Below, piece after piece: positions 11,438-40,672 of a stretch of 45,749 nucleotides of DNA. The notes beneath the pieces are model-generated. The model was not told where the DNA came from and made no database searches. It saw only the letters and a list, made by a program, of their open reading frames with translations. Position numbers and translations under genes: made by a program. Position 1 is the stretch's first letter. Every line of letters begins with the position of its first letter. This stretch comes from Bryobacteraceae bacterium (GTDB lineage Bacteria > Acidobacteriota > Terriglobia > Bryobacterales > Bryobacteraceae): contig JAICXK010000009.1 of NCBI GenBank assembly GCA_025980435.1, positions 1 through 45,749 on the forward strand. Reading direction: 5' to 3'.

Positions 11438-14400
11438 CTACTGCCCGCGCCAGTGCCAACGCACCCAATAGTATTCCTGCACGCGAGTCATCTGCCCCTC
11501 ACGCGCGAGTAACGCGGCGTAGAGCATCGTCTTTGCCAGGTGCGATTCGCGTTCGCGCGAAGTTAGGTCGAACGCTATGTTATTCCCGCCGATAGAGATC
11601 TCGAAATCGGGCTTGATATCCGCAACGCGCGAGTTCAACACAGAGTTCGGAATCGACGCCCGTAGCCACTGATAAGCCTGGCCTTCGTTCTGGAACCATT
11701 GATCGACGGTCCGCTGGAGCACTGTCGGCGAAAGTGTGTTGAAGGCTTGAAGCTGCAGTTCGACATGGGGGACCGCGCCAGCCGGGAAACCCATGGCTCG
11801 CAAAACACGCGCCAGTTCCGCATGCAACATCGTCCCGAACGCTGCGTTACCCGCGGCTCTCCGTCCGCTTGCACGCAGGTTGGTTAGCGCCTGCCGAATG
11901 GCCGTTTGAAGATCAATCGCCATAGGCGCCTGCACAGCCTCCTGCTGGACTTGCTGCTGTCCGGCGCCTTGCTCCAATTGGGCGAAGATCGCGTCAATCC
12001 GCCGTTCGATTCTTTGTTCGCGATCCTGAGCTCTCCACTGCTCTTGCGTCATGGTTCGGGTACCTGGGGCAGGATTGACTCCTCCGAAATCCGGCGCGGC
12101 GGGTTGCGCGGGCGCCCCGGCAACCTCGACCGGGTTTGCTTCCGTGACTTCGATCTCCAATTGAATCGGGTTCCCGGGAACTGGCTCGAGCGCTCCAGCG
12201 GCCGCGGCAGGCAACTCCGGCGCGTTGGCAAGATCGATGGGCGCGGTGAACAAGTCGCCCGGACGTGCGGAGATCATCGGGCTCCGCTGTTCGACCACAG
12301 ACATCAGTTGATCGCCGATCGCTCTGGTGGATCTCGGCATGGAGTAAAGCGGCTCGGATCCCTCAAGAGCACTGGAGACCAATTTGTTGAGGAGACTCCG
12401 TTGAAGATATCCTTTAACGCCCGTTGCGGGTGCTGACGGCGTCGCCCCCGGCACGAGTTCCTCGGGATTCAGCTGCGTGACCGTTTCTGCGGCCGTGGAA
12501 ACTTGCGGTTCCGGTTCACCGGGCTGAACTTCAGAAGCAGCGGCTTTGCCTTCACTTGTCGCTGGAGCGGGAGCTCTGGCAGGCCGCGGCATCAGCCTTG
12601 AGAGTGCGCCGGCTGGACCTCCAACAACACCGCCCCATCCGCCCGCCTCGATCCACGATAAAGGCCCTCCGATCTGCGCCGCCTGGAACCGGCGCTCTGC
12701 TTCTGACGTGGAAAGGTTGGATGCGAGATAGCTTGTCAGATCTGTGGCAACCGAGCCGGAGAACCCACCAGAAAACCCGGCTACGGTCCCTTCCACGTAC
12801 CCGGCCGCCACTGTGCCTTCTTCAAGACCGAGCAGCGTGGACGCGCCGGCACCGAGCCCTTTGCCAAAAAATGGCAGTGCGATGGCCAGATCGCCGATAG
12901 CCCCTTTCACGACATCGCTGATGTGAAAGCCGGTGTAGTCGTTGTAAGAGATGTGTCCCATGCGATAGGCATGTGCACGTGCGGCGTGGGTGTCCATGTA
13001 GCCGCCGCTCGCGACGTTACCGAAGCCGTGCATTAGCTTGTTGGCTCCCAGACCGATCTTGTTCCCAAACCAGGCAAAATACGACCAGCCGCCTTCCTCC
13101 CAATCCTCCGAGGCCGCTTTGCGAATGTCTTCCGCGTTTTCTTCCCAAATCTCTCCCGCCGTCCGATCGGGCATGTTCTCCTTGCGGAAATTGTTCATCG
13201 CCTCCATCGCCTGGCTCGAGCGAGTCGACAGGCTCTGGATATTGGCATTGATCTTGCCGACGAGTTCGGTCTGGTCTTTGTTCCCCGGCATGAGGACGCT
13301 GCTCAAGGTCTCGCCGGCTTTCTTGAGGTCGGGTAATACTTCGTGCCACAGCGTCCAGACTTCGTCCTGCGTGTAGTCGGCCGGGTCGGCAGCCATCTTG
13401 TCCAAGCGCTCGCCGTAGTGCTCGAGCAGGTACTCGGCCTTGGCGTTAAGCTCGGCGATTTCAGCAAGCTGGCGAGCGTCGTTTAGCGCGATCAGCGTCC
13501 AAAGGTAAGCGCCACGGGTCGAGAGAGGATCAAGAGATGCAAGCGCAAGAGCGCCATGATCGTCCTGCAGTTTTTTGAAATCGGTGGTGAACGTCAACTC
13601 GCTCGGCGTGTCCTCGAGACCATCGGGGTCGGGAAGTTCGACATTCACGAGCGGATTTCCAATGGGCTCCAGCATCTGGCGGGCGGCTTCGTTGCGCGCA
13701 ATCTCGGCGATGAATGGCTCGGCGTCCGCATGCGTCCGCGCGGCGTCGAGCAGACCGGGCAGCAGCGCGCTGAGTAGTTCATCGCGCGAAACGTATTCGA
13801 TGCCGGGCGCGAGGAAGTTGCCAAGTGGAGCCTGAGCGAAAAACAGCCCTTGGGGGCCGTCATAAGGCAAGGCGCGGCGGAGGTGCTCGCGTCGATAAGC
13901 GGCGTCCTGTAGCATCTGCAGCGAATCGCGATCGAGCGCAACAGCAAGGAACGGATAGTCGGCGAGCGGGTTCTCCGGTATGGGCGTGCAGACCTGATCA
14001 TCCGCGGAACAGGTCTTGTCGCGCGGCTGACACCGAAGCTGGTTGTCCGGTGAACCCGATTGCTGAACAATGTGCGTGAGTTCGTGCGCGAGGAGCAGAC
14101 GTCCGTCGTGCGATCCGGGCTGGTATTCGCCGCGTCCGAATACGATATCGGAGCCGAGCGTATACGCGCGCGCGTTGAATCGAGCGGCGGAACGCTCTGC
14201 GTCCGGGCCGGTGTGAATGCGGACTCCGGCGAAACTCGCGCCCAAACGAGATTCAAAGTAGTCGCGCTGTGATGGCGAAAGCGGCGCGGTTACGGGCGCG
14301 TTGGCGATCTCGGCATCATCCTCGCCGACCGGCGGAGATGAGACAACGTTCTGCGCGGCAACGTCTGCCTCTTGTTCCTCGCGCAATTTTCGCTGCACGG

Positions 14401-14506
14401 CCTGGTTCCCGGCGTGGCTGAGGGCGCTCGTGCTCTGTGCCTGCGACGTGCCGCGAGTGGCGGCGTCAGGATTTGCCGAAACCTTTTCAAAATCAAATGA
14501 GGGCAT
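11438..14506 (-). CDS. DUF4157 protein with nuclease-like C-terminus, likely eCIS cargo
   Basis: A 1022-aa protein at the end of the eCIS operon. Residues ~75-150 form DUF4157, including FAGVRIHTGPDAERSAARFN and the HELTH metal-binding motif (141-145) of a putative zincin; DUF4157 is a known marker of eCIS-associated effectors. The middle is helical, with a Gly/Ala-rich hydrophobic stretch near residues 530-590 that could insert into membranes. The last ~60 residues contain IKPDFEISIGG...FDLTS, which resembles a PD-(D/E)XK-type nuclease core of polymorphic toxins, with the catalytic Lys apparently replaced. ATG at 14506 overlaps the AAA ATPase stop; a TTG at 14527 is less likely. No obvious immunity gene follows. 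Role as toxin is inference. Confidence 0.8.
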   Translation of the reverse strand: MPSFDFEKVSANPDAATRGTSQAQSTSALSHAGNQAVQRKLREEQEADVAAQNVVSSPPVGEDDAEIANAPVTAPLSPSQRDYFESRLGASFAGVRIHTGPDAERSAARFNARAYTLGSDIVFGRGEYQPGSHDGRLLLAHELTHIVQQSGSPDNQLRCQPRDKTCSADDQVCTPIPENPLADYPFLAVALDRDSLQMLQDAAYRREHLRRALPYDGPQGLFFAQAPLGNFLAPGIEYVSRDELLSALLPGLLDAARTHADAEPFIAEIARNEAARQMLEPIGNPLVNVELPDPDGLEDTPSELTFTTDFKKLQDDHGALALASLDPLSTRGAYLWTLIALNDARQLAEIAELNAKAEYLLEHYGERLDKMAADPADYTQDEVWTLWHEVLPDLKKAGETLSSVLMPGNKDQTELVGKINANIQSLSTRSSQAMEAMNNFRKENMPDRTAGEIWEENAEDIRKAASEDWEEGGWSYFAWFGNKIGLGANKLMHGFGNVASGGYMDTHAARAHAYRMGHISYNDYTGFHISDVVKGAIGDLAIALPFFGKGLGAGASTLLGLEEGTVAAGYVEGTVAGFSGGFSGSVATDLTSYLASNLSTSEAERRFQAAQIGGPLSWIEAGGWGGVVGGPAGALSRLMPRPARAPAPATSEGKAAASEVQPGEPEPQVSTAAETVTQLNPEELVPGATPSAPATGVKGYLQRSLLNKLVSSALEGSEPLYSMPRSTRAIGDQLMSVVEQRSPMISARPGDLFTAPIDLANAPELPAAAAGALEPVPGNPIQLEIEVTEANPVEVAGAPAQPAAPDFGGVNPAPGTRTMTQEQWRAQDREQRIERRIDAIFAQLEQGAGQQQVQQEAVQAPMAIDLQTAIRQALTNLRASGRRAAGNAAFGTMLHAELARVLRAMGFPAGAVPHVELQLQAFNTLSPTVLQRTVDQWFQNEGQAYQWLRASIPNSVLNSRVADIKPDFEISIGGNNIAFDLTSRERESHLAKTMLYAALLAREGQMTRVQEYYWVRWHWRGQ

Positions 14507-16433
14507 GGTAGTGCTTGAAATCGGCAAGCGACGAAGGCTTACCTTGCTTGAACAGTTGACGGCTCACGGCACAGGCGATCTGCCGCATCGTGATGACACC
14601 GCCGTCCTGAGCAGCAAGAAACGCGGCGTCAAGCGCGATGTTGCGGATATCGCCGCCGGTTAGCTGGAATTGCGCGGCCAGGAACGAGAAATCGATGGCT
14701 TTGTCGAGCGGCGCATTCTCCGGGAAGACCTTGAGCCAGAGTTTGCGCCGGTGCTCCTCGTCCGGCGCGGGAAACTCAATGACGTAGTGCAGGCGGCGCA
14801 CGAATGCGTCGTCAATGTTGCGCCGCAGATTCGTCGCGAGAATCACGGTGCCGTCATGCTCTTCGAGTTTCTGCAGCAGATACGCAACCTCGATGTTGGC
14901 GTAGCGGTCGTGCGCATCGTTCACTTCGGAGCGTTTGCCGAATAACGCATCGGCTTCATCGAAGAAGAGAATCGACTGGCTGCCGCGGGCGGCGGCAAAG
15001 ACACGGTCAAGATTCTTCTCGGTTTCACCGATGTATTTACTGACGACGCCCGAAAGGTCGATGCGAAAAACTTCAAGTTCGAGATAGTTGCCGACGACGG
15101 CAGCAGTCATGGTCTTGCCGGTGCCGGAGCCGCCAGCGAAGAGAACCTTCAGTCCTTTAATGCCGTGGTATTTGCGCGCAAAGCCCCAGTCGTCATAAAC
15201 GATGTGGCGGTAGCGGATGGCTTCGGCAAGCTCGCGAATCTGACGGAGAGTCGACGCGGGCAGTACCAGGTCATCCCATGTCTGGCTGCTAAGGAGGCGG
15301 CGCGCGAAGCCGCCGATCGTGCTTTCGGACTGACTGCGGATGGCGCCGGCAAGATCGGCGAGATCGGGTTCGCGGTTCTCGTTGTTAAGCGCGAGCATGT
15401 CGCGCGCGTAGGCGGCGGCGCTTGCGATCTGCGAAGGGCCAATGGAATAGCGGGCGGCGAGTTCGAAGGCAAGAACATTGGGAACCTCGGTGTTCCAGAG
15501 CTGCGCGCGGTCATGATAGCCGGCATCGGGAAGGCGGAGGACGCGGACTGTGTGCGCGGGGATTACGCCGCGCCAGTTGGCGCCGGGCGGAAGCACTATC
15601 CAGATTGGCGCGACAGGATTCGCGAGCTCCTGAAAGAACCGGCGCGCGCCGGTAGCCGCGAGCATTTCCGCCAATGTGAGCAGACAGACGCCGCAGCTTT
15701 CAATGTGCTGCAGAAGCTTGATTGGGGCGGCTTGGTCCGGCGCGTAAAGATCGATGGTGACGAGGGGGCGTTGCGCGAGGTGACATGCGGTCTCGATCGC
15801 TGAGCGGGTATCGTCGAATGAAGCGGATTCGATCAAGTAGAGCCGCGCTAGTGACGCGGTCGCGGTGAGGACATCGTGATGGGTCGACGTGGCTTTGGGA
15901 ATCGTGGATTCCGGAGCTAGTCCAGTAAGATGGCGCAGCACGGTCAAAGGAACAGTGAGTTCGCGCGCGAGAAATCCGTCGCCGGTTGCGGTTAGCAAGC
16001 CAGTGGAGAGAAGCCGGCTTTCCGGCAGAAGAGAGTTGCGGTCGGCTTGCGTGCAGACGCGCAGCGCGAGTTCGACGGTTGGCTTTTTGCGGGATACATC
16101 GTTCTGCAAGTACGCATAGAGCGTCTCGTATTTGAGGCTCAATTCGCCCGCCAACGCAAGTAAGACAACGTCGTGCTCGAATGGCGTGAGTTCGAGCGCC
16201 GCCCATTCGGGAGGGTCTTTGGCCTGGCGCGGCAGCTCTTCGAGAATCTCTGAGCCGCCAGCGATGTTTCGTACCAGGGAATCGACCTGTTGATCGCTTA
16301 CGTAGAGACCGCGGAACTCGTCGAGCGAGAGCCGATATCGCACACGGAGACGAAGGATCTCGCGGTGCAGCAGGATATCGAGGCGGCGAAGTTCGCCGTC
16401 GAAGTATGTTTGCATTTCGACTGCGGTGTCCAT
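14493..16433 (-). CDS. eCIS AAA+ ATPase (Afp15/Pvc15 type)
   Basis: A 646-aa protein with a long helical N-terminal region (1-380) and a C-terminal AAA+ domain: Walker A GGSGTGKT (434-441), Walker B ILFFDEADALFGKR (488-501), sensor-1 Asn in VILATN (about 535), and arginine-finger candidates in FVRRLHY. An ATPase of this type is a conserved component of extracellular contractile injection systems, in the position of Afp15; by family knowledge it is thought to help assembly, cargo loading or sheath recycling. ATG at 16433 lies 9 bp after the preceding stop, and its own end overlaps the DUF4157 gene, so it is translationally coupled to the putative effector. Confidence 0.9.
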   Translation of the reverse strand: MDTAVEMQTYFDGELRRLDILLHREILRLRVRYRLSLDEFRGLYVSDQQVDSLVRNIAGGSEILEELPRQAKDPPEWAALELTPFEHDVVLLALAGELSLKYETLYAYLQNDVSRKKPTVELALRVCTQADRNSLLPESRLLSTGLLTATGDGFLARELTVPLTVLRHLTGLAPESTIPKATSTHHDVLTATASLARLYLIESASFDDTRSAIETACHLAQRPLVTIDLYAPDQAAPIKLLQHIESCGVCLLTLAEMLAATGARRFFQELANPVAPIWIVLPPGANWRGVIPAHTVRVLRLPDAGYHDRAQLWNTEVPNVLAFELAARYSIGPSQIASAAAYARDMLALNNENREPDLADLAGAIRSQSESTIGGFARRLLSSQTWDDLVLPASTLRQIRELAEAIRYRHIVYDDWGFARKYHGIKGLKVLFAGGSGTGKTMTAAVVGNYLELEVFRIDLSGVVSKYIGETEKNLDRVFAAARGSQSILFFDEADALFGKRSEVNDAHDRYANIEVAYLLQKLEEHDGTVILATNLRRNIDDAFVRRLHYVIEFPAPDEEHRRKLWLKVFPENAPLDKAIDFSFLAAQFQLTGGDIRNIALDAAFLAAQDGGVITMRQIACAVSRQLFKQGKPSSLADFKHYHALI

Positions 16434-16442
16434 TGGCTTCGA

Positions 16443-17939
16443 CTATGGAGCTTCGGGGTACAGATTGAACGGCTTTGGAGTGAGCCAGGAAATGGTGTAC
16501 TGCCAGCGGCAAATACCGGTCATGTTTAGGAGCAACTGGAGCGGCGGAGGACCGAGTCGAACGACGCGGCGGTCCTCGTATTCTTCGATGCTGGCTGGGA
16601 AGTCGAGAAAGTTTTCATATAAGTGCGGGAGGCTCGATGTGGAGAAGCCCGGCAGTCGCCATGCGAGTGAACGTGCAATCAGCAGAGCGGGATCTTCCAG
16701 CCATCTGTCACGGCGCGAGGAAAGCAGGTGTGGAAGGCGGAGATAGGCCCGGTCGGCCGGCGCCCGATGCCGCGAGTTGTCACGCATCAAATCCGAAGTA
16801 AGGCACTCGCGGCGAAGCCGGCGGAGCCGGCGTATGGGAATCATCTCTTGCCAGCGCCGGAAGGATTCGGCCGAGAGAGCCGCGTCGATATTGAAGAGCG
16901 AACGGATCAGGGGATCTTCAAATGCGCGTATCGCGCGCGCGGCGCCGAGCACTTTGAGCAGAATCCAGAAGCGGATGAGCTGATCGCTTATCGGAAGCGC
17001 GTCCAGAAATGGGAGCAGGAGGAATACGCCGCCGAATGGCGTGTAGCGGCGATCCGGAATCTCGGCCGTATCCGCACGCGGTTCGAGGAATGGCTCGAAA
17101 ACACTCCGCGGTGTGCCGAGCAGGGGCTCGATGATGACGAAATCCTCGAGGGTGATCAGGTCACGGAGATCGTGGGGCCGGTTCTGCGCAATATATTCGA
17201 TGGCGCGCGCGACTGCTGCCGAATCGAGTTCACGAGCCACCAGAAGCAGCCGGCCGACAGGACGCGCGGCAGGTATCCAGCAGCGTGCCGCGAGCGACAC
17301 GTGAAGGGCCCACCGGAATTCGCCCGCGCCATCGGGCCCGGGCAGCGTAGCAGGGATGGCTGTAATAGGCCCTTCAGGCAGCGTCTTCGCGATGGTATCC
17401 CAGATACGCCGGGCGTCATTCTCGGAAAGCGCGGCGATGATCGAGCGTAGTTCCGCCGCGCTCATGCGGAGCAGGGCGTCAATGCCCTGGGGGTTTGTAC
17501 AGACAGCCGTACGGATGCGCGCGGTCGTCGAGAGATAGTCGAGTCCTTCGAAGCGGCTCTGATACCACTTACGCGGACGCCCCGCGGCAGCATCCGTTAT
17601 ATATGAGAGGAGCAGGCCGGCGTGGTCTTCGAAATGAACGATATCGCCGTCTTGCGGTTCGCCGATGCGGCGAACTAGTGCGGCCGCAAGACGGCCGGCC
17701 CATACCTCTGCGATGGCGTCGTCATTGTGATCAAGGTTGAGGTCAACATCGAAGTGGAGCCGCCGGAATATCCAGATTGACGAATCGTCGCGCCCGGGGG
17801 CTATCGTTTGGAGAGCGCGCGAGAGGACGCCGGGCAGGCGCTTCGCGGCGACAGAATCGAGACGCTCGCGTGTCGCGAGCGGGAACGAGTCATCGTGCGG
17901 GACGAGATAGCTCGAATGGAATTTGCCGACCGCAATCAT
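16443..17939 (-). CDS. probable eCIS tape-measure-like protein
   Basis: A 498-aa protein between the fibre genes and the AAA ATPase, the usual place of the CIS tape-measure protein (Afp14 position). It has an N-terminal segment with IFRRLHFDVDLNLDHN, a helical middle (PQGIDALLRMSAAELRSIIA), a hydrophobic GGVFLLLPFLDALPIS that fits the family pattern of a Leu-rich motif before conserved helices, an Arg-rich region, and a C-terminus with ICRWQYTISWLTP. It is short compared with classical phage tape measures and lacks long coiled coils, so the name rests on position and partial pattern. ATG at 17939 overlaps the preceding stop as ATGA; a longer frame starting at 18041 would lie inside the upstream gene. 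Confidence 0.55.
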   Translation of the reverse strand: MIAVGKFHSSYLVPHDDSFPLATRERLDSVAAKRLPGVLSRALQTIAPGRDDSSIWIFRRLHFDVDLNLDHNDDAIAEVWAGRLAAALVRRIGEPQDGDIVHFEDHAGLLLSYITDAAAGRPRKWYQSRFEGLDYLSTTARIRTAVCTNPQGIDALLRMSAAELRSIIAALSENDARRIWDTIAKTLPEGPITAIPATLPGPDGAGEFRWALHVSLAARCWIPAARPVGRLLLVARELDSAAVARAIEYIAQNRPHDLRDLITLEDFVIIEPLLGTPRSVFEPFLEPRADTAEIPDRRYTPFGGVFLLLPFLDALPISDQLIRFWILLKVLGAARAIRAFEDPLIRSLFNIDAALSAESFRRWQEMIPIRRLRRLRRECLTSDLMRDNSRHRAPADRAYLRLPHLLSSRRDRWLEDPALLIARSLAWRLPGFSTSSLPHLYENFLDFPASIEEYEDRRVVRLGPPPLQLLLNMTGICRWQYTISWLTPKPFNLYPEAP

Positions 17940-20311
17940 TTGCGTTTGCCGAGTGTCGCCTGCAAGAGGCTGAACACCGAGGACACCATGCCGATGGCGG
18001 TGCGGATGGGCTTGACGGAATGCGTGTTCGACGATTCCCACGCGGTACCGATGATGTCGAACCGCTTGCGCTCCACTGCCTCGGGAGGAGAGAGCGCAAT
18101 CGCTGCGCCATCGTTCTTGCCGGAGCAGACCAGGACATCGCCGACGCGTACGCGGCCGCTCACTTTGACGGGCGTTTGGCCGAGCAATGCGACCCTGGCC
18201 TGCCGGATCGACGCCGACATGTTACCGACCACTGCCGGGCGCGTGGAGATCGCGGCGAACTGGTGAGCATCGCGCGTATCGAGCGTGAGTTTGCCATCCA
18301 CGATGGCCACAACATCCCCGGGGCTGACCTGCTCATCGGCGGCAAGGGGCAGGCACTCGGCGAAGTCCGCGCCGGTCGTATTGAGAGCAACGCCCACGCC
18401 GTTGCCTTCGATGGCACCGACCGCGCCTGAGCCCGAAAAAAACGTGATGAAGTTGTTGTCGGCCAGCGCCGGAGACGCGCCGAGCTTGAGAGCGAGGACG
18501 TCGGCGTTAGCACTGGCCGCGTTTTCAATAACTGCGACGTGCTTCGTGATGTCGCCGCCGGGACCGGACTGCGCATCGACCACGTGGAGCTTGCAGGTCG
18601 GCGATGAGATGCCGATGCCGACGCCGCCATCGCCTGGGAACGAGTTCATGGCGATGTTGTTGTTGCCGGCGCTGCCACTCGCCCGGATAAACACGCTGTT
18701 GGTTTCGGAGTGGAGATCGACGGAGCTGCCGTCCGTGCGAAGGTCGATGTGCTTGCCGCCGCCTTCAAGCCGGATGCGATCGCCGACAACGTGCAACTGG
18801 ACGGCCGGAGTCGCAGTGTTGATGCCAATGTTTCCGCCAGCTTGAATGGTCATGCGTGTGACGTTAACGCCGGAGCGGAAGACAAGGTCGTGATTCGTCA
18901 TCGTGGAAATGATGCCGCCGCTCGCATCGGCGCCGATCAGTACTTCATGCGTACCGCCGTCTGCAAGAACATTAAGGTAGGTGCCGCCGCTGCCGGCGAC
19001 CGTAACGGCGCGATTCGGCGATGTCGTGTTGATGCCAACGCGGCCCTGATCATCGACCGCGATTCGCGGGGTATTATCGGCGCTGGACAGATAGAGGCCC
19101 GGACCCGGAGCGGAGTTCGAGAACACGCGGCCCTTCTGCACGCCGTTCTTGTCCTGGAAGATGAGATCACCGGCATCGTCCGTAGCGGCTCTCATAACGA
19201 GATCGCCGTCGTTGATTTCAAGCTTCGCGGAGGGAGCCTCGGTACCGATGCCAACGCGCCCGTCGTCGCGTACCGCGAATTTCGGAACGAAGCCGCTGCC
19301 GGTCTCGGGACCCACTTCGAGGCGGTTGTCTCCAGCCTCCGCCGAGCCAATACGAAGTTGTAGAGAGCGTCCCACGACAGCGCCCGCACGGCGGATCTCG
19401 AGGGGAATGCCTTCATCCTGGCCGAGCGCATTGACGAATACGGCTTTTGAACCGAAGAGCCGCGCGTTCCCCTGAACGCGAAGGTCGCCTTCCACCCATA
19501 CGAGGTCGGGCGATGCGACGAGCGACGCAGCCGTGGTGCGGTTCTTGAGCCGTAACATCCCTTCGGGAGCCTGAATCGCTGCGGAGACGGAGCCGATCAG
19601 AACGCGGAATGCGGCGGCCTTATCTTTATCAGCCGGTAGAATCTTTTTGAACGCGCCCGGCTGCGCCGCAATGGGATTGGGACGCCAGCGGACGTATCCC
19701 AAAGGCACGAGCCACCGGGACTTCGCGCCGGCAGACGGGAACGTCTGAAAAGGAATCGACGCATCCGGGATCAGCGCGTCGGCAGGATCGAACGCATGAA
19801 AGGCTTCTTCGGCTTTGACGCTCGAGCCCGCCACGATGATGTTATCGCGCATGGCCGCGTCGTCACGGGGGCCGATTTCGATGGTGTAAGACTCGAGCGC
19901 GCGGGCGAAATCGTTTCCCGGCGTGCAGGAGGCGAAGCCGGGAGCGGCCTCCTGAGTGGGTATCTCCCGATAGCGAATCCAAACCTCCACGAGACGGCCC
20001 GAGGGTTCATCGATCAGCGGATCGTACACAAACGACTTGAACAGGTCGGCGGGAATGCTCGCCGGGTTAAGCAGCACGATGGGCCGTCCGAAGCCGTCCC
20101 AAGCAAAACCGGGCTGAACGAAGTCGAGCACTTCCCCGCCCGGACCGTCGATCTCCTTGATGCCGAGTCCGACTGCGATACCCCAGGTATGAGCGCCGAG
20201 CGCATGCCGCGCCGCTGCAAGACGCGAGTATTCGAGCGCGGCCGTCAGATCTTCGGCGCCGAGAAATTGTCCTTCAAAAAATTGCGGACGCAAGAGCTGG
20301 TTTGCCGGCAT
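17936..20311 (-). CDS. tail-fibre-like protein with G2-chaperone-like end
   Basis: A 791-aa protein. Residues 1-50 (LLRPQFFEGQFLGAEDLT, THTWGIAVGLGI-like) are the third copy of a head module shared with the two genes before it. The middle (about 350-590) has repeated phage-fibre motifs of the form VGIGTxxPxxKLxI/V (VGIGTEAPSAKLEI, VGINTTSPNRAVTV, IGINTATPAVQLHV, VGIGISSPTCKLHV). The last ~170 residues (TGADFAECLPLAADEQVSPG, AAISTRPAVVGNMS, VKVSGRVRVGDVL) resemble the autoproteolytic intramolecular chaperone (peptidase G2 type) of trimeric fibres. It is likely a receptor-binding or surface fibre of the particle. ATG at 20311 has AGGAG upstream. Confidence 0.75.
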   Translation of the reverse strand: MPANQLLRPQFFEGQFLGAEDLTAALEYSRLAAARHALGAHTWGIAVGLGIKEIDGPGGEVLDFVQPGFAWDGFGRPIVLLNPASIPADLFKSFVYDPLIDEPSGRLVEVWIRYREIPTQEAAPGFASCTPGNDFARALESYTIEIGPRDDAAMRDNIIVAGSSVKAEEAFHAFDPADALIPDASIPFQTFPSAGAKSRWLVPLGYVRWRPNPIAAQPGAFKKILPADKDKAAAFRVLIGSVSAAIQAPEGMLRLKNRTTAASLVASPDLVWVEGDLRVQGNARLFGSKAVFVNALGQDEGIPLEIRRAGAVVGRSLQLRIGSAEAGDNRLEVGPETGSGFVPKFAVRDDGRVGIGTEAPSAKLEINDGDLVMRAATDDAGDLIFQDKNGVQKGRVFSNSAPGPGLYLSSADNTPRIAVDDQGRVGINTTSPNRAVTVAGSGGTYLNVLADGGTHEVLIGADASGGIISTMTNHDLVFRSGVNVTRMTIQAGGNIGINTATPAVQLHVVGDRIRLEGGGKHIDLRTDGSSVDLHSETNSVFIRASGSAGNNNIAMNSFPGDGGVGIGISSPTCKLHVVDAQSGPGGDITKHVAVIENAASANADVLALKLGASPALADNNFITFFSGSGAVGAIEGNGVGVALNTTGADFAECLPLAADEQVSPGDVVAIVDGKLTLDTRDAHQFAAISTRPAVVGNMSASIRQARVALLGQTPVKVSGRVRVGDVLVCSGKNDGAAIALSPPEAVERKRFDIIGTAWESSNTHSVKPIRTAIGMVSSVFSLLQATLGKRK

Positions 20312-20320
20312 CGATGACTC

Positions 20321-21982
20321 CTATGAATTCTTCTGGCGCAGCGCGCGGACGAGGCCATCGATCGTCATCTGCTGCTTATCGACAGTCTGTTGAAGCTCGC
20401 TGATCCGGTTCTTCAGCGCATCGAGCTGCGAGTCCTGCTCTTTTTCGTGTCTCACATCGCCTGCAGCGGCGTCACCGCCGGAGCGCATGAAGGCAGCGAT
20501 CGCTTCCGGCGGAATGGCGGCAGCGAGAATGGGCGCGAGGAGATCGTCGGCAATGGCAACCGCAAGCGGATTTTCCAGATCGAGGTTTTGAAGAAACGGC
20601 GTACTGTTCGCGTCGTTCAGGCCGGCCGCGGCGTAAGCGACGGCTTCGACTCCGCCCGGAGCGGAGGAACTGAAGCGAGTGAAAGAACGGAGAGCAATGG
20701 CCGACAGAACGCCGCTATCCCTATCCGGCGCCGCATTTCCCAAATGGGACCGGCTGAAATCGGCTTTGACGCCCGCTGTGAGATTGCCCTCGCGAGCAGG
20801 CAGCACAGCGCAACAGACTCGCTCGAGTGCCTTACGCAGGTTACGGACATAGGGCAGAAAGGAAAGCCAGTATTGAAGGTTCGGGAACGTGGTGAGGAAC
20901 TTGCGACCTTCGAGGTTGCAGATACGCAGCACCTGGCAATCCTTGAGGCGAATGGTGAGCGTCGCGAGTGGAACACAGTTGGTGAGAGCGGGATCGGGGC
21001 ACGGTGGCAGAAGAGACGAGCACAGGCAGCCGCGCAGGTACTCAATGATCACGGGCGCGAAAAGCTGGAGCGTTTGTACGAGATATTGCTGAGGCGAGAT
21101 TGCCGAGGCCGGACAAGGCACGGTTAGCTTGTCGAAGATCGCGCAGTTCGTTCCGGGGTTCTTGCGGAACAAGTTGATGAGCGCCGTGCGAAGGTCGGCG
21201 CAATACTTCTGCGCCGCGGCCATCGTGAGGTTCGCGCCCGTTGGCGGCGCAGGAAGCGCTGCGGTGAAATCGGCAAGACAGCCCAGGAACCGATCGAACA
21301 TCGCGCCGCGCGGCTGCTCGCGGGTTTCCGCGGGTGCCGGATATGCAACAAATTTGAAGGTCTCGCAGACGGTCACGGGTTCACATTGTGTAGGCGCGGG
21401 ACGGGGCGAGGTCTTGGTCGCTTTTGATCCACAGCTACAAGCGCCATGCGATCCACAGCCACACTTAGGCGCGCAGGCGCCAGTGGAACGCAGCGCGGGT
21501 ACGCCGCGAGACAACGTTTCGTCGTAGCAGAGGGCCAGAATCCACTGCTGCTCGGCCTGTTCGCACACGGCCGGGATCGGGCGCGGCGGAAAGCAGTTGT
21601 CGGGCTCGGGGGTGCAGCATCCCGTGATGAGTTCGCAGATGTCAACCGTCTGATCCGCGCAGAGGATGATGTCGTCTCCGCAAGGGCTGAGCGCATACCC
21701 GCCCCGCACGATAACCTGATTGCCGCACGGGTTGCAGACAACCTCCATTCCGCACGCAACTCCCCAGCCGTGGAGGTAGCGATTGTGGAGCTTGTTCTTC
21801 GCGACGATGTAGTTCTCGAGGCGGTTCAGGTCGGCCTCGGTAAGAAGCTGACCGGCGAAGAAGCGAGGGCGGCAGAGACACTCGAGTCCGCCGCACACGG
21901 GACACGGGATGCAGGGATCGGCAGTGGCCGGCTTGCCGGTTGCCGCGGCGGCCAAGCTGGAGTAAGTCATGGTGGGAGTCAT
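20321..21982 (-). CDS. Cys-rich eCIS protein with shared head module
   Basis: A 553-aa protein. A Cys-rich start (PCIPCPVCGGLECLC) leads into the module RPRFFAGQLLTEADLNRLEN...RYLHGWGVACGMEV, also present in the genes on both sides. A second Cys/Gly cluster (ACAPKCGCGSHGACSCG) lies near residues 190-207, and several more Cys pairs follow, suggesting disulfides or metal sites. The C-terminal ~40 residues form a coiled coil (LDALKNRISELQQTVDKQQM). It has no known enzymatic motif; a structural baseplate or fibre-adaptor role is inferred from position. ATG at 21982 overlaps the preceding stop (ATGA) and has AGGAGG upstream. Confidence 0.7.
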   Translation of the reverse strand: MTPTMTYSSLAAAATGKPATADPCIPCPVCGGLECLCRPRFFAGQLLTEADLNRLENYIVAKNKLHNRYLHGWGVACGMEVVCNPCGNQVIVRGGYALSPCGDDIILCADQTVDICELITGCCTPEPDNCFPPRPIPAVCEQAEQQWILALCYDETLSRGVPALRSTGACAPKCGCGSHGACSCGSKATKTSPRPAPTQCEPVTVCETFKFVAYPAPAETREQPRGAMFDRFLGCLADFTAALPAPPTGANLTMAAAQKYCADLRTALINLFRKNPGTNCAIFDKLTVPCPASAISPQQYLVQTLQLFAPVIIEYLRGCLCSSLLPPCPDPALTNCVPLATLTIRLKDCQVLRICNLEGRKFLTTFPNLQYWLSFLPYVRNLRKALERVCCAVLPAREGNLTAGVKADFSRSHLGNAAPDRDSGVLSAIALRSFTRFSSSAPGGVEAVAYAAAGLNDANSTPFLQNLDLENPLAVAIADDLLAPILAAAIPPEAIAAFMRSGGDAAAGDVRHEKEQDSQLDALKNRISELQQTVDKQQMTIDGLVRALRQKNS

Positions 21983-29632: not shown

Positions 29633-30100
29633 TTACGTGATTTGGACTTGGCCGGCCTTTAGCGCCAGGATGCGCCCGCCTCCATGCAATTCGATCGATT
29701 GCTGAGTGTCGTCGATGACAACGGTTTGACCGCTGCTCGATTGGATCTCGATCTTTTCGCCGCCGGGATTGTCGTCGAGAGTGATCCGGTGACCGCTGAC
29801 GGTTACGATCACGCGCCGATTGCGGTCGGATTCCGGAGGAACATCGGCGCCGTTCCAAAGAAAACCGACAACGAACGGATGATCGAAGTCGCCCTGCTCA
29901 AACGCAACAAGCACTTCGTCGCCTGCTTCGGGCGAAAAGAACAGGCCGCGCGAGGCGCCGGCCATCGGGGCGGCAATCGGGGCCCAGGCGCTCTGCGGCG
30001 AGCCTGGCAGCCACGGAAACTCGAGCAGGATGCGGCCTTCGCCGAGCGGGTCCGCGGTATTAATGACCAGCCCAATTACGACGCCCGGTTGGACGGTCAT
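29633..30100 (-). CDS. gpV/gp5-like spike protein (OB-fold plus beta-helix)
   Basis: A 155-aa baseplate assembly protein V homologue. Residues ~5-95 form the OB-fold seen in VgrG/gp5 (VVIGLVINTADPLGEGRILL, AWAPIAAPMAGASRGLFFSP, GDEVLVAFEQGDFDHPFVVG, FLWNG). The remainder has short alternating strands (HRITLDDNPGGEKIEIQSSS, VVIDDTQQSIELHGGGRI) of the trimeric spike beta-helix. Together with the preceding gpD-like hub it makes the split equivalent of VgrG. Its ATG overlaps the hub stop (ATGA) behind GGAGGG. Confidence 0.92.
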   Translation of the reverse strand: MTVQPGVVIGLVINTADPLGEGRILLEFPWLPGSPQSAWAPIAAPMAGASRGLFFSPEAGDEVLVAFEQGDFDHPFVVGFLWNGADVPPESDRNRRVIVTVSGHRITLDDNPGGEKIEIQSSSGQTVVIDDTQQSIELHGGGRILALKAGQVQIT

Positions 30101-31323: not shown

Positions 31324-32022
31324 TCAGTCCAATGGCGGAAGCGTCAGAAACGTTCCAGCTTGAAGACGGCGCGGATCTTCGATGCCGTTCGCCCCGGCGA
31401 TGACGCGCCAGTCTCCCGGCCGCCGGTAGTGGTCGCCCGCTACGGAAGAGAGAGTCTCGTCGCTGCGCAGAACGCGGACCTGAGTCTTGTCCGGAGAATT
31501 TAGTCCCAATTGGTTGAGCTGTTGCGTCAGCGGCTTGTATTCGCGAAGCTTGAGCACTGCCGTGGCGCGGAGCGGGACGCCTCTCGGGCTGAAAAGCGTG
31601 TACTTGTGGACGACCTGTTCCACCAGGCAGCGGAAACCGTGTCGCGCCTGGTTGCCGGCCTGAAGCGGCATGTCATGGCCAGGGAATCCGCGGCCCCATT
31701 TGAACTCGCAGACCGGGGGCGCGTGGGAGTCCGGATCAATCTTGGTCAAGGCATAGACCTGGTCGATCAGCGTCGTCACCGCCTTTACTCTGAGCTTGTT
31801 GCCCATTCCGGAGTCGGTTGTATCGAAGAACAGCGTTACGGAAAGGGTTTCGTTCTGACCCCGAATAAACTGCAGGAGCGGCGAATCGAGGCCCGGAATC
31901 GTGATCTCGGCAATATGCACGCTGCGGGTAAACTCGAGTTCGGACGGATTGTACTGGAAATCGATGCGCTGCGGCTTTCGACGCCACGCAACATCGATGT
32001 GACCTTTGAGCGGCGCGGCCAT
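31324..32022 (-). CDS. LysM-domain baseplate protein (Afp7 type)
   Basis: A 232-aa protein. The first ~180 residues match the eCIS 'tube-baseplate adaptor' family (RIDFQYNPSELEFTRSVHIA, GQNETLSVTLFFDTTDSGMG, LVEQVVHKYTLFSPRGVPLR). The C-terminal ~50 residues are a LysM-like domain (VRVLRSDETLSSVAGDHYR, WRVIAGANGIEDPRRLQAGT). The chosen start is ATG 32022 with GGGAGG upstream; an upstream in-frame extension to 32172 lies within the small gene before it and is not protein-like. Confidence 0.9.
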   Translation of the reverse strand: MAAPLKGHIDVAWRRKPQRIDFQYNPSELEFTRSVHIAEITIPGLDSPLLQFIRGQNETLSVTLFFDTTDSGMGNKLRVKAVTTLIDQVYALTKIDPDSHAPPVCEFKWGRGFPGHDMPLQAGNQARHGFRCLVEQVVHKYTLFSPRGVPLRATAVLKLREYKPLTQQLNQLGLNSPDKTQVRVLRSDETLSSVAGDHYRRPGDWRVIAGANGIEDPRRLQAGTFLTLPPLD

Positions 32023-32023
32023 G

Positions 32024-32209
32024 TTACGCCTCCCGCTCCTGTGCGTCGCGAATGCCGGTGCCGACGCGGCGCTCTTCCTCGAGATCCTTTTCGCGTGACT
32101 TCCGTGCGTCGAGGATGGCGATAACGGCCCGCGCAATTGACTCGGCTTGCGGCGCGGCTCTATCCATGACACGAACAGAGCTCGCTATTTCTCCGATTTC
32201 GACGTCCAT
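32024..32209 (-). CDS. small eCIS protein, DUF5908-like
   Basis: A 61-aa acidic and basic mixed protein (MDVEIGEIASSVRVMD..., ending RRVGTGIRDAQEREA). Very short proteins beginning M-x-V-E-I-x-E sit at this place, between the tube and LysM genes, in many eCIS loci and are annotated DUF5908. The helix ESIARAVIAILDARKSREKD is amphipathic. Its ATG shares one base with the tube stop codon, and its stop is one base before the LysM start, so translation is coupled on both sides. Role unknown. Confidence 0.65.
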   Translation of the reverse strand: MDVEIGEIASSVRVMDRAAPQAESIARAVIAILDARKSREKDLEEERRVGTGIRDAQEREA

Positions 32210-32781
32210 TACGTAAGAATTCCTCCTCCTACAAGTTGGCTCGCCACGAGCCCTGCGCCGGCCGCTCCGAGTCCGACGAACGGAACCTGGTAGATGCCTT
32301 CGTGCGTAATGGTCATCTGCTCGATCGCCACTGAGCTTTGCTGCGCGTTCATCGTGGGTCCGGTGTACTTCGCTGGCAAGCCGCGGCGGAAGTACCAGAT
32401 ATTGTTTGGGACATGAAGATCGCTGAGAAGGATGACAAGGCCATCGCGGCGCTTACCCTTCCCTTCGACAAAGCTGTAGCTCCAGTCCCACAGCGAAGTC
32501 AGAGCGCCGACTCCTTTTTTAAGCGTGATCTGGCCCCACTCGCTGCGCGTCGGGAAATGAAGGACCTCGCTGTTGCGTCCGCCCTCCCGGACGTCCTCCA
32601 TGGTGAGTGAAAGGTCCAGGCCGCTGCATTCTTGAAAGCCGCCTATCGCAAGGTCGCCGACGGCGGAAAAGATGATCGACTTCGCGAGCGCCCCGCCGCT
32701 GGACGTATCGAGCAGGCTGACGACGAAGTTGTAGCCCATGGTGGGCATGGGCGAAAAACCAGCGAGCCGAAGCAGTCCCAT
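32209..32781 (-). CDS. tail tube protein, second copy (Afp5 type)
   Basis: A 190-aa phage-tail-tube homologue: MGYNFVVSLLDTSSGGALAK, GGFQECSGLDLSLTMEDVRE, LHFPTRSEWGQITLKKGVGA, LTSLWDWSYSFVEGKGKRRD, then the C-terminal IEQMTITHEGIYQVP typical of the tube family. It carries an additional hydrophobic C-terminal tail (GLGAAGAGLVASQLVGGGIL). Such a second tube variant usually forms the layer next to the baseplate. An alternative start is the internal ATG of MPTMGYNF. Confidence 0.88.
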   Translation of the reverse strand: MGLLRLAGFSPMPTMGYNFVVSLLDTSSGGALAKSIIFSAVGDLAIGGFQECSGLDLSLTMEDVREGGRNSEVLHFPTRSEWGQITLKKGVGALTSLWDWSYSFVEGKGKRRDGLVILLSDLHVPNNIWYFRRGLPAKYTGPTMNAQQSSVAIEQMTITHEGIYQVPFVGLGAAGAGLVASQLVGGGILT

Positions 32782-34776: not shown

Positions 34777-34827
34777 GGTCAAAACGATTGGAAATCGGAT
34801 GAACGAGTTCTTAATGCTCTCCTCTGA

Positions 34828-35259
34828 TTACGCGAGCGCGACACCTTCGTGGACCAGTTCCACTGTCTCGATGGCGACCTCGTTGGTGGTGGCGTTGAAG
34901 TTGGGACCATCGATCTTCTTAATCCAGGCGTTAGTGAAGTCCCACCGCAGGACGTCCACGTGGGACTCGTTCTGAAGGATGATTGAGCCGTTGCGCGTGT
35001 CGGAAATCCCGTTCGCGATGTTGCGATACCAGTCCCACAGCTCGCGGTTTGTGGTGTAGCCGCGCTTCAAAATAATGTTGGGGAACTGGTGAAGACCCGG
35101 CCCCTTGCGCGTGGAACGAACCATATCAGAACCATCGCGGTATTCGACTACGGCGGAGTCGCCGGATAACCCTGTTACTTCGCGGAAGGCGCCCACGGTG
35201 AGCCCGTCGATCTCTACTCGAAAGTTGAATGAAAGAAACGGCATTGTGGGAGTAGACAT
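34828..35259 (-). CDS. tail tube protein, first copy (Afp1 type)
   Basis: A 143-aa inner-tube subunit: FLSFNFRVEIDGLTVGAFRE, TGLSGDSAVVEYRDGSD, GLHQFPNIILKRGYTTNREL, WDWYRNIANGI and the C-terminal NEVAIETVELVHEGVALA are the standard eCIS/T6SS-Hcp-like tube pattern. Size is normal. It is the more canonical of the two tube proteins and should build the tube lumen through which cargo passes. ATG at 35259 with AAAGGAG upstream. Confidence 0.94.
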   Translation of the reverse strand: MSTPTMPFLSFNFRVEIDGLTVGAFREVTGLSGDSAVVEYRDGSDMVRSTRKGPGLHQFPNIILKRGYTTNRELWDWYRNIANGISDTRNGSIILQNESHVDVLRWDFTNAWIKKIDGPNFNATTNEVAIETVELVHEGVALA

Positions 35260-35271
35260 GGCATTTCTCCT

Positions 35272-38670: not shown

Positions 38671-38685
38671 AACGATTCAATCTCC

Positions 38686-39852
38686 TCAGGTCAGGGCAAT
38701 GTCCGCGATGTTTTGGGCCGATTCGTAGTTGGGAACCATGATGTTGTGAACCGCGGGATTGACGCCATCATCGGCCGTCAACTCCAGTTGGCCCACGCGA
38801 TTGAGAGCAGGCAGACGGTAATAGCCGCCGGCATCGGTCGTAACCGAAAACAGGGAAACGATGTGATATTCGGGATCGGGTCCGCCGTCGCCGATCTCCA
38901 CTGTCATCGCGCCCGCGATACCGGCGAGTCCCGCCGTCAGAACAACCGCGTCTCCGGACATGGCGTCAGAAACCAAGGCGTTGTTCGCGCCGAGCGCGCC
39001 CGCTGTCATGCGCTCAACGCGGGCACCCGGACGATGGTCGACGCGGCCGGGATAGCGGAGCACGATCTCAGCCGGTTGACCAGCCACCGAGCTTCCGCTA
39101 ACCGAGAGCACGGTGAGATATTCCGTAAGCTCCGGATCGTCGGCGTCAATGCGACAAATCTCTCCTGGCGCCATGCCGAGCCGGTTCGACAAGCGCCATC
39201 GCGCCGTTCCCGCAGGTGCGTCGTCAAGAAGTTCACTGATATCCGGTGTGATGGCGAAGTCTCGCCGCCGGACCCGCGCTGTGGCGCTTGAACGATTGAG
39301 ATAGATGCCCGGACGCAGCGACACGAGGTCGGGTGCAGCGGGTGGAGGCGCCGCGATGGGCGTCGGAATGCGAAGCCAATACCCGGTGATGCTTACTGTG
39401 GCGCCGGAAACAGGAGCAGTGCCGGCCGCAGAAACGCGAACCACACGGCCTAGCAACTCCACGTTCTCGCGATGAAGTTCGATCATGCCAAGATCGCGAC
39501 GGGTAAAGGTACCCGGGAAAGTCGGCTGATTCACGAAGTGGGCATCCGTCGCGAAGGGAATATAGCGGCGCGCAGCGACACTGAAGTCCACATCGTACGG
39601 ATCGGTCCGCAAAAACGGCAGAGCGCGTTCCGGAACGCCGGTAAGGCCGGCGAATCCGTCAACCGTCGACCGGGGCGCGAGCTTTGGAAACGTCGTGCGT
39701 GCCACGAGTTCTACCGCCGGAGCCTGCCCGGTGTGCTCGTCGCGGAATTCTGCGGATACGATGCTTTGAATAATGCGGCCCGGTCGCAGTCGCGCGTCGG
39801 GCGAGATGATGTAGAAGCGGTCGTCGGTCGTCCAGGTTTGGCGTGACGTCAA
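38686..39852 (-). CDS. eCIS accessory protein sharing the sheath repeat
   Basis: A 388-aa protein of unknown function. The first ~110 residues lack a recognised domain. Residues ~130-190 (ELLGRVVRVSAAGTAPVSGA, YWLRIP) and the C-terminus (TTDAGGYYRLPALNRVGQLE) look like a split carboxypeptidase-regulatory-type beta-sandwich; between them is a repeat of the same type as in the giant sheath (MAPGEICRIDADDPELTEYL, VLRYPGRVDHRPGARVER). The start is a TTG at 39852 overlapping the DUF4255 stop as TTGA, with GGAGG upstream; no ATG fits. It may decorate or bridge the sheath surface; this is inference. Confidence 0.65.
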   Translation of the reverse strand: MTSRQTWTTDDRFYIISPDARLRPGRIIQSIVSAEFRDEHTGQAPAVELVARTTFPKLAPRSTVDGFAGLTGVPERALPFLRTDPYDVDFSVAARRYIPFATDAHFVNQPTFPGTFTRRDLGMIELHRENVELLGRVVRVSAAGTAPVSGATVSITGYWLRIPTPIAAPPPAAPDLVSLRPGIYLNRSSATARVRRRDFAITPDISELLDDAPAGTARWRLSNRLGMAPGEICRIDADDPELTEYLTVLSVSGSSVAGQPAEIVLRYPGRVDHRPGARVERMTAGALGANNALVSDAMSGDAVVLTAGLAGIAGAMTVEIGDGGPDPEYHIVSLFSVTTDAGGYYRLPALNRVGQLELTADDGVNPAVHNIMVPNYESAQNIADIALT

Positions 39853-40469
39853 AGTGCGCCTCCGCCGACGATGACTGCGCTCACGGGCTCGGCCGATTGC
39901 ACCGGCGCGACAGATTCAATCAGTTCAGAATCGATGTTGACCACGGCAGCCTCATAAGACACCGAAAGCTGGTAAGGCTGGTTGAGCGCATTCCAAACCC
40001 GCGCGATGTCTTCGAGCGGCAAGCTTTCGAGCGAGACCTGAAACTCCTGGCCGGAGCCGCTGAGGTCGCCCTCGAGGTCGCCGCCGCGAAAGCGGGGGTG
40101 GTCATGAAAAGTCTGCATCACCTTGCCTAGAATGCGCTGCTCGAGTTCGGCGGAGTTCGGGGAACCCGCACGAACAAACGGCGTAACAAGGTAGTGCAGC
40201 CGAAGCGGCAGCGAAGGGAACCGCGACTCGCGGCCGTTCAGGCGTGTGTTGGGCTGGTTGAGACGGTCGGCATCGCGAATGAGGCGATACATCCAGAGGG
40301 AGACGCCTTCCTGGTGCGCCTCGGACATCTCCTGCGGATTGTTGATCGAGACAATAAGAGTGCCGCCGCTCGCCGGATCAAAGAAAGCCGAAAGGACGGG
40401 ATCGCTCTCCAGCCTGTGACGCACGAACGCTGCTACCGTGAGGCTCGCCGATTGGAGGGCCGGGTACAT
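39849..40469 (-). CDS. DUF4255 protein (Pvc16/Afp16-like tail terminator)
   Basis: A 206-aa protein of the DUF4255 family, which includes the Pvc16-type tail-terminator protein of eCIS: LQSASLTVAAFVRHRLESD, GGTLIVSINNPQEM, GVSLWMYRLIRDADRLNQPN, SLPLRLHYLVTPFVRAG and LEQRILGKVMQTFHDHPRF are characteristic. By family knowledge it caps the end of the sheath/tube and sets its length with the tape measure. Its ATG shares one base with the stop of the gene before it. Confidence 0.88.
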   Translation of the reverse strand: MYPALQSASLTVAAFVRHRLESDPVLSAFFDPASGGTLIVSINNPQEMSEAHQEGVSLWMYRLIRDADRLNQPNTRLNGRESRFPSLPLRLHYLVTPFVRAGSPNSAELEQRILGKVMQTFHDHPRFRGGDLEGDLSGSGQEFQVSLESLPLEDIARVWNALNQPYQLSVSYEAAVVNIDSELIESVAPVQSAEPVSAVIVGGGAL

Positions 40470-40672
40470 CAGTTTCCCGGCGCCTCAGCGCCGCTTCCCA
40501 TGTTGACGTTGGTTGCTTCAAGCATCGTGATAAGCGTCGAGAGGTAAGCGCGGCAGATGACGATGCGGACATACATCAGCGTTTCCTCCCCGCCGAGGTG
40601 TTGTCCAAAATCGATAACGACTTCCTGGTCGTTAAAGCCGACTTTGAAGTAATTCGCATAATGGCCTTCCAT
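40469..40672 (-). CDS. DUF3467-like small protein, first gene of the eCIS operon
   Basis: A 67-aa protein: EGHYANYFKVGFNDQEVVID, FGQHLG, then RIVICRAYLSTLITMLEAT. The pattern (A-N-Y-F-x-V-G-x-N-x-x-E-x-V-x-D-F-G, later a Tyr-x5-helix) matches DUF3467, small proteins of unknown function. Start ATG 40672 is chosen from the family N-terminus; an upstream in-frame TTG (40774) would add 34 residues. A possible sigma54 -24/-12 pair lies 38 to 54 bp upstream. It could be an assembly factor or regulatory partner of the eCIS; no evidence decides. Confidence 0.6.
   Translation of the reverse strand: MEGHYANYFKVGFNDQEVVIDFGQHLGGEETLMYVRIVICRAYLSTLITMLEATNVNMGSGAEAPGN

Follow-up and report, generated by a model that had tools for sequence, protein, structure and literature searches.

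The stretch analysed here (the window) is an entire contig of 45,749 bp from a 416-contig draft metagenome-assembled genome (MAG; 93.5% complete) of a Bryobacteraceae bacterium. Its minus strand carries an operon for an extracellular contractile injection system (eCIS), which runs from 40672 to 11438 and is preceded by the gene of a sigma-54 enhancer-binding protein (EBP). The locus is likely to make a contractile injection particle, and the EBP, together with the DUF3467-like product of the first operon gene (g01), is likely to form a lineage-specific control head that is kept while different contractile injection systems (CIS) arrive horizontally (probability about 0.65). The parts of the operon, their order and their intactness are evident from the DNA itself, and the products would be expected to assemble, contract and deliver.

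The operon comprises 21 genes when g01 is taken to start at the ATG at 40672 and a 61-residue open reading frame (ORF) at 32024-32209 is included; with that ORF added, the gene count of the first-pass annotation is right. Eight of the 20 junctions are overlaps, 19 measure 20 bp or less and the longest is 45 bp, which bears out the earlier description of nearly every junction as an overlap or a few bases. All genes of the run are free of frameshifts and internal stops. Sheath, tube, gp25, gpJ, spike, Pvc16_N terminator and AAA families all occur in this one locus (Pfam), as does an eCIS_core (DUF4157) protein (E-value: 2.6e-29), and families, coordinates and intact frames agree with the complete eCIS-type run proposed earlier at 11438-40672. 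Pfam backs most of the core parts then listed; the hub and the tape measure have weak or indirect matches, and the PAAR-like tip is suggested by its sequence pattern. Capsid, portal, terminase, integrase and lysis families gave no Pfam match in the run or in 15 flanking ORFs scanned, in a view limited by the contig ends; because the window is the whole contig, the visible flanks are limited to ~11 kb and ~5 kb. The earlier statement that head, capsid, terminase, lysis and integrase genes are missing from the run stands and extends to these flanking ORFs, so that the visible part holds no prophage. The giant size of one sheath, the EBP, a tRNA-Gly remnant by the 3' end and the doubt over particle release had been passed over.

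The EBP gene is located directly upstream of g01, outside the coordinates first given for the operon. Its product has a Sigma54_activat AAA domain, a Fis-type helix-turn-helix and the GAFTGA motif that defines sigma-54 EBPs. The first-pass annotation had singled out the DUF3467 start of the operon; g01 is indeed the first gene, but it is better read as one half of a regulatory pair with the EBP, and its Pfam match is below the cut-off. In the same-genus genome G006, EBP and DUF3467 genes precede an eCIS of another sheath group, with 46% identity over 361 residues between the two EBPs and 48% over 52 residues between the DUF3467 proteins. This arrangement was found in the window, G006, G027 and G779, and was then sought and found at locus L023 (G456) and in G801; upstream of L023, where a DUF3467 gene was already listed, the search was made because the spacing in G006 predicted the pair there.

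Twelve acidobacterial loci with sheath or Pvc16 matches were compared (the window, G006, G024, G027, G030, G031, G033, G043, G456, G779, G788 and G801). Outside these twelve stand the G797 and G781 contigs, which match neither sheath nor Pvc16, G030:C212, where the spike alone matched, and contigs whose sole match is eCIS_core; the 23 genomes with eCIS_core include G019, G769, G785, G800, G803 and G812, whose matches are weak and which were not fetched. An EBP gene lies near the upstream end of the operon in 8 of the 12 loci, and 6 of these 8 have DUF3467 too. The eCIS behind the pair belong to three sheath groups, with G779 and G801 placed by their ATPase only or not placed. Since EBPs scoring above 100 bits number 9 to 19 per genome (five genomes counted; about 2.5 per Mb), chance would put one within 5 kb of any chosen place in about 2.5% of cases. 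A tree of 67 EBPs unites the six with DUF3467 in a single clade (support 100/100), from which the window EBP branches first; none of the 56 background EBPs falls inside (63 were counted above 100 bits, of which 7 were not fetched). The DUF3467 family as a whole is found in 8 of 22 eCIS-bearing genomes versus 3 of 14 control genomes; two of 10 DUF3467 places, G461 (same contig as G006:C40) and G456:C12, adjoin an eCIS, and guessed spots in L044 and L093 were empty. A second eCIS-linked EBP clade (100/99) contains L025 1354-2370 (Nitrospirota), L026 4210-5160 (Gammaproteobacteria) and L015 16677-17606 (acidobacterium G030); two of these three are short (~350 residues).

A candidate operator lies between the two genes of the pair. 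Exact TGTYACA occurs twice there in each of G006, G027 and G779 (0 of 300 random stretches). Because the motif was first noticed in these three, L277 and L278, fetched later, are a fair test, and they contain two and four exact copies, respectively (0 of 1000 random stretches each). Around 56 other EBPs, TGTYACA occurs 9 times in 192 kb.

The machines behind the pair differ in ancestry. Relatives of the window operon were collected by a tube-alignment pattern scan of one genome per species (84,980 species), in which 455 of at least 593 stretches encode a relative; the best 80 of the 455 were kept. Among these 80, L022 (JALUUH010000060.1, Gammaproteobacteria MAG 128-326) has the top overall score and is the sole locus with a match to the accessory gene g03. 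A tree built from 72 sheath cores places the window with L022 (100/84), then with Cereibacter (99/95) and a Nitrospirae contig (92/84), and a 38-row tree, from which mostly Bacteroidota rows and G031, G033 and G043 were left out, agrees for these groups (98/90, 96/91 and 91/76). The same-genus eCIS (L038) stands apart from the window in the 72-core tree, paired with L023 in a supported 19-row clade that includes cyanobacteria and Chloroflexi; G027 and G030 form a separate group (100/99), and G031, G033 and G043 are far off. The AAA ATPase tree has long branches, shallow support and no G027, and just three of its groups were used: the window with L022 (98/98), G006 with L023 (100/94) and G779 with Crocosphaera (98/93). 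Among 396 acidobacterial genomes, a convincing g03 is found in the window's own genome only (two others match at E ~8e-4). We infer that the operon probably came by horizontal transfer.

From its distribution, we read the EBP-DUF3467 pair as a putative dedicated eCIS switch reused by horizontally acquired machines. The wider proposal, to which we give slightly better than even odds, is that Terriglobia acidobacteria own a dedicated sigma-54 switch (EBP clade, DUF3467 and TGTYACA arrays) that takes control of eCIS of differing structure once these have been acquired horizontally, with DUF3467 as a feedback partner, and that the second EBP clade reflects sigma-54 control having arisen more than once. 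If true, the regulator tracks the host lineage while the machine changes, which names a switch to test and would explain the immediate usability of a foreign eCIS; the EBP clade, DUF3467 and the TGTYACA array would then be a sequence mark for finding such systems.

A number of results weigh against this proposal. Adjacency of the EBP gene to the operon is not regulation, and any role for DUF3467 is guesswork. The window g01 scores 19.2 bits and so fails the gathering threshold of Pfam PF11950 (25 bits), which is passed by its same-slot homologues in G006 (56 bits), L277 (46 bits) and L278 (52 bits). Neither EBP nor DUF3467 matches were detected in the DNA examined for G031, G033, G043 and G788 (viewed over its 21-kb contig only for G033, and over 7.7 kb beyond the sheath for G031), and the EBPs of G030 and G024 lack a DUF3467 partner and fall outside the clade, that of G024 among ordinary EBPs. 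The window has no exact TGTYACA; it has three one-mismatch sites, a number reached by 5% of random stretches, and its best three activator-matrix scores are equalled by 47 of 1000 random stretches. These motif statistics are approximate, the random stretches being mostly coding and from G000 only. A scan for a sigma-54 -24/-12 promoter gave a best score of 16.0 before g01 (background median 16.5); the corresponding scores were 16.5 in G027 (the median), 18.5 in G006 (95% level) and 19.5 in G779 (99% level). As the window EBP branches first in its clade, the window site may, at a guess, have drifted. The pair could instead be an unrelated neighbour on the same genomic island, with the eCIS expressed constitutively or controlled from elsewhere. 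The promoter and site scans of the window fit such a neighbour, as does the colinear operon of L022, which has no EBP or DUF3467 match and which has, by eye, LuxR-type and GGDEF genes upstream; chance company is nevertheless unlikely given a pair at six loci with three sheath groups, an EBP clade that, within the set examined, occurs only at eCIS, and sites shared by five loci.

Whether the particle leaves the cell is a separate question. The machine may be cell-bound or cytoplasmic, as in haloarchaeal type VI secretion system (T6SS)-like or Streptomyces CIS, with the CIS13-type proteins forming a baseplate or crown seat at the producer's envelope; this is a tentative but serious alternative. 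The best solved matches of the giant sheath g04 are 9ezm, from a study of a haloarchaeal T6SS-like system described as membrane-bound (E-value: 5e-112), and 8bky, Cis2 of S. coelicolor (E-value: 1e-98; PMC11566945), and in the sheath trees the window is closer to Haloferax, Streptomyces and methanogen systems than to cyanobacterial and Bacteroidota ones. The fibre N-termini resemble a protein of a thylakoid-anchored CIS (see below), and neither the operon nor the 15 scanned flanking ORFs matched a lysis family. A crude hydropathy scan of 20 of the 21 operon proteins (all but g07b) found six with a 19-residue mean of 1.6 to 1.9 (maximum 1.92), at which a membrane segment is possible; however, these hydrophobic stretches are in sheath, tube, tip, accessory and fibre proteins, and the run shows no obvious dedicated membrane protein. 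The tape measure, the adaptor and the propeller-, collagen- and chaperone-like fibre regions would suit a particle that binds its target outside the cell. A defective prophage or tailocin with its head genes off the contig is extremely improbable: the short flanks leave room for one, and a RepA-type gene and the tRNA-Gly remnant adjoin the 3' end, but eCIS_core, Pvc16_N, CIS_tube and the AAA ATPase are marks of an eCIS, and annotated Cereibacter stretches (~42 kb each) name no head genes. It is also improbable that the contig is mis-binned and foreign to the acidobacterium. Operon composition is atypical, with a GC content of 0.612 (17 sampled contigs: 0.577; left arm: 0.539), and tetranucleotide correlation is 0.86-0.89 for the operon and 0.90 for both arms versus 0.94-0.96 for six other contigs. 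On the other side, left-arm genes match same-genus genomes at 72-79% in DNA, the EBP clade's five other members are acidobacterial, going by their kin or their record titles, and the right end probably runs on into contig C201 of this assembly, because window 45609-45749 matches the start of that contig exactly (141 bp).

The proposed model for a lineage-specific control head joined to an acquired injection particle is as follows. A signal would activate the EBP, and sigma-54 polymerase would transcribe the operon from a promoter before g01. DUF3467 may tune the switch, perhaps through contact with the EBP or with the operator, such that machine building feeds back on expression. The particle would then assemble, with the tape measure and cap setting its length and the AAA ATPase probably helping to load the eCIS_core cargo. 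The three crown/CIS13-type fibres on the baseplate would bind the target, and the giant-sheath barrel would contract, driving the tube with spike and tip into the target cell and delivering the cargo. The control head would stay in the lineage as structurally different CIS arrive by horizontal transfer.

Table 1. Predicted features of the window, in operon order, with the EBP gene first and the tRNA remnant last
Feature	Coordinates	Strand	Evidence
Sigma-54 EBP, 434 aa, proposed operon activator	40973..42277	-	Sigma54_activat 3.7e-67; HTH_8 6.7e-14; GAFTGA visible
EBP-DUF3467 intergenic region, 300 bp	40673..40972	-	Two tandem GGTTTACA copies; 0 exact TGTYACA
g01, DUF3467-like, 67 aa from ATG	40469..40672	-	Pfam DUF3467 0.0013, below cut-off
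g02, cap/terminator, Pvc16_N (DUF4255)	39849..40469	-	Pfam 1.2e-37
g03, 388-aa accessory protein, weak CarboxypepD_reg-like end	38686..39852	-	Pfam 9e-5, below cut-off; 36% to L022 homologue
g04, giant sheath, 1132 aa	35272..38670	-	Pfam sheath; C-terminal domain of the two sheaths 4.9e-16 and 2.3e-14
g05, tube protein 1	34828..35259	-	gp19 3.6e-41; matches solved tube proteins
g06, second sheath, 666 aa	32782..34782	-	Pfam sheath
g07, tube protein 2	32209..32781	-	gp19 2.2e-27
g07b, small 61-aa protein in slot of small CIS ORFs	32024..32209	-	Look-alike ORFs by eye: Cereibacter (59 aa), L022 (similar size)
g08, tube-baseplate adaptor, 232 aa from ATG	31324..32022	-	CIS_tube 1.7e-26
g09, hub (VgrG-related)	30097..31320	-	NCBIfam VgrG_rel 7.1e-25, below model cut-off; best Pfam 0.017
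g10, spike	29633..30100	-	Phage_base_V 4.2e-25
g11, possible PAAR-like tip with extension	28913..29626	-	Sequence pattern only; 0 Pfam or NCBIfam matches
g12, gp25 baseplate wedge	28486..28893	-	Pfam 6.5e-25
g13, gpJ baseplate	26522..28483	-	Baseplate_J 1.1e-22; TIGR02243 8e-105
g14, gpI / CIS12-like fibre adaptor, weak NHL repeat	24525..26525	-	Tail_P2_I 2.6e-8 (over cut-off); TIGR02242 6.4e-25; CIS12_fam 1.7e-40, below cut-off
g15, fibre A: crown/CIS13-type N-terminus, propeller-like middle, collagen-like stalk	21979..24510	-	Below cut-off: CIS13_fam 5.2e-25, YncE propeller 4.9e-8, collagen 0.0046; collagen repeats visible
g16, fibre B	20321..21982	-	CIS13_fam 9.6e-8, below cut-off
g17, fibre C, weak Peptidase_G2-like C-terminus	17936..20311	-	Below cut-off: CIS13_fam 1e-7, Peptidase_G2 0.019
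g18, tape-measure-like, 498 aa	16443..17939	-	No match itself; L022 homologue matches CIS_TMP 1.5e-6
g19, AAA+ ATPase (WHD + AAA)	14493..16433	-	Pfam 1e-16 and 2.2e-25
g20, eCIS_core (DUF4157) cargo candidate, 1029 aa	11438..14527	-	Pfam 2.6e-29; HExxH in sequence
tRNA-Gly(CCC) 3' remnant, 45 bp, probable att site of neighbouring RepA element	11150..11194	+	Identical to last 45 bases of intact tRNA-Gly G006:C40:21933-22007

The sheath g04 has its core at residues 1-93 and about 847-1131, with a long insertion in between. Among 105 complete sheath ORFs (from 70 of the best 80 loci with a sheath match, a sample biased to tube-similar loci; median 488 residues), the longest is the L022 orthologue (1127 residues) and the next has 831. 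Residues 460-578 of the insertion are related to residues 221-338 of g03 (blastp E-value: 3e-8), and the accessory protein and the sheath therefore share a domain. The predicted fold is weak (pLDDT 54, pTM 0.41), with ordered-looking parts of the insertion at about 370-520 and 620-770 only. That g04 is an unmatched giant among acidobacterial loci is ruled out by a second CIS sheath of 1159 residues in a genome of the same family (G788:C278:27006-30485; L200 7006-10485), in which the sheath core is likewise split by a very long insertion. In contrast to these ends, which blastp aligns with g04 (residues 1-93 and 817-1130), the insertions do not align, and there is no EBP beside the G788 locus; in the 38-row tree this sheath has a long branch and no set position inside the window's wider clade. 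Type 3 multi-domain phage sheaths are also interrupted by extra domains and have 1032-1283 residues; among the table entries considered, sheaths above 1000 residues are phage entries only, the longest not labelled phage having 814 (a plasmid) and 805 residues (PMC9230969). Giant sheaths raise the question of what a CIS gains from extra domains at a size otherwise listed for phages.

The last 199 residues of the cargo candidate g20 have a best Pfam E-value of 0.064, no plasmid match and no confirmed viral-contig relative, and the last 299 have no PDB match. In the 396 acidobacterial genomes, this 199-residue end has one weak match besides itself (25% identity, E-value: 6.6e-4), and in 282 genomes of another phylum, searched without a positive control, it has none. 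A single-sequence fold is unusable (pLDDT 44); by eye, this end has an unconfirmed PD-(D/E)XK-like look. The small ORF g07b, which ends directly ahead of the adaptor ATG at 32022, has no Pfam and no significant PDB match.

Beyond the 3' end of the operon, genes for a YhcG nuclease and a RepA-like protein (RepA/RPA, 9936-10925), together spanning 8864-10925, adjoin the tRNA-Gly remnant. Of 60 genomes searched, 25 (counting the window's own) contain RepA-like matches, not all of them strong, and one two-contig genome carries several copies in its main replicon. These elements look like a family of tRNA-Gly-integrating elements. A plasmid-borne operon, suggested by the RepA/RPA gene, was considered; the gene is read as part of an integrated element, given the copies in multiple genomes and the tRNA-Gly remnant between it and the operon, and the window contig has no terminal overlap. 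On G006:C40, the contig's own eCIS, on the minus strand, lies ~12 kb downstream of the intact tRNA-Gly, and between the two (G006:C40:22500-31500, L009) are genes for a DUF4280 protein, two Ser/Thr kinases, two PP2C phosphatases and FHA/VWA proteins. Such a kinase, PP2C and FHA set, here beside an eCIS, is reminiscent of T6SS post-translational control. Integration at tRNA genes is reported for eCIS, of which 7.6% are plasmid-borne (PMC8213781). In the left arm, a Cpn60-type chaperonin gene (3053-4720; Pfam E-value: 1.3e-82) matches DNA of same-genus genomes at 72-79%, and contig C133 of its own genome holds a second copy (73%); in G016 and G004, the gene after it is matched on the same contig as the Cpn60-type gene.

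An alignment shows that g15, g16 and g17 have an N-terminal domain in common, which matches NCBIfam CIS13_fam below the model cut-off in each case (5e-25, 1e-7 and 1e-7). Its profile matches All3314, chain AA of the thylakoid-anchored CIS structure 7b5h (1e-5). We take this chain to be the crown. Fibre anchor domains of this kind have been described, with 7b5h named for the crown of the thylakoid CIS (tCIS), and Tail_P2_I adaptors, propeller-collagen fibres and multi-fibre loci have been reported, more than one fibre being present in 23.4% of 2585 fibre-bearing loci (PMC12923769). Like the eBAP-type eCIS of that study, the window has a Tail_P2_I adaptor, fibre genes downstream of gpJ/gpI, propeller and collagen regions and several fibres per locus; membership of the eBAP type is suggested by the CIS13_fam and 7b5h matches. 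The fibre set is within the published range.

The gene set as a whole had been singled out as new, a claim that does not survive comparison. Cereibacter plasmids and, almost gene by gene, L022 share the order of the window: cap and accessory genes, two successive sheath-tube pairs, the small ORF, adaptor, hub and spike, then gp25, gpJ and gpI, a collagen fibre and another fibre, the tape measure and the ATPase. L022 is colinear with the window from g02 to g19, except that g11 has no match at the cut-off applied, and best segments range from 20% identity (tape measure) to 65% (tube 1). Like the window, L022 has three fibres, a 384-residue g03 and a 1127-residue sheath (55% over 1150 residues); unlike it, L022 has a GC content of 0.43 and a barely similar tip gene. 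Its cargo also differs, consisting of two other eCIS_core proteins, one with a HINT end. This candidate (L107 8557-12237) has a weak eCIS_core match followed by a HINT/intein-like C-terminal domain. Plasmids of Cereibacter azotoformans (p2, NZ_CP090024.1) and C. sphaeroides (p.B, CP031753.1) also have an accessory gene between cap and sheath, two sheath-tube pairs, the small ORF, a collagen-like and a second fibre, a tape-measure slot and an ATPase in the same order. Unlike the window operon, these systems are plasmid-borne and have an 821- rather than 1132-residue sheath, two rather than three fibre genes, separate 312- and 131-residue genes in the slot of the single g11 and no EBP or DUF3467 match within the fetched stretches. 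In S. clavuligerus, a protein annotated as carboxypeptidase-regulatory-like fills the slot of g03. The colinear operons and this Streptomyces slot rule out a novel gene set; nor is the 388-residue repeat protein novel, its slot being filled in Cereibacter and S. clavuligerus, and multi-fibre loci such as this one are already published (PMC12923769).

With regard to control, a review describes the regulation and eliciting cue of those eCIS loci that lack conserved regulatory genes as unclear, and it mentions neither sigma nor RpoN (PMC10598620). Among the open-licence papers listed, as judged by title or start of abstract (10 of 69 in one listing), none pairs a CIS with a sigma-54 EBP/RpoN or with DUF3467; in PMC10599522, one of the papers on sigma-54 so listed, the CIS phrase occurs in the reference list only, and 'sigma' and 'DUF3467' are absent from the main text of PMC8213781. 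The nearest parallel is the GerE/LuxR eCIS regulator of the latter paper, the gene of which, like the EBP gene of the window, adjoins its eCIS operon. Where that paper names GerE and BTAD, the window instead has a sigma-54 EBP and a DUF3467-like protein at the head of its operon (PMC8213781).

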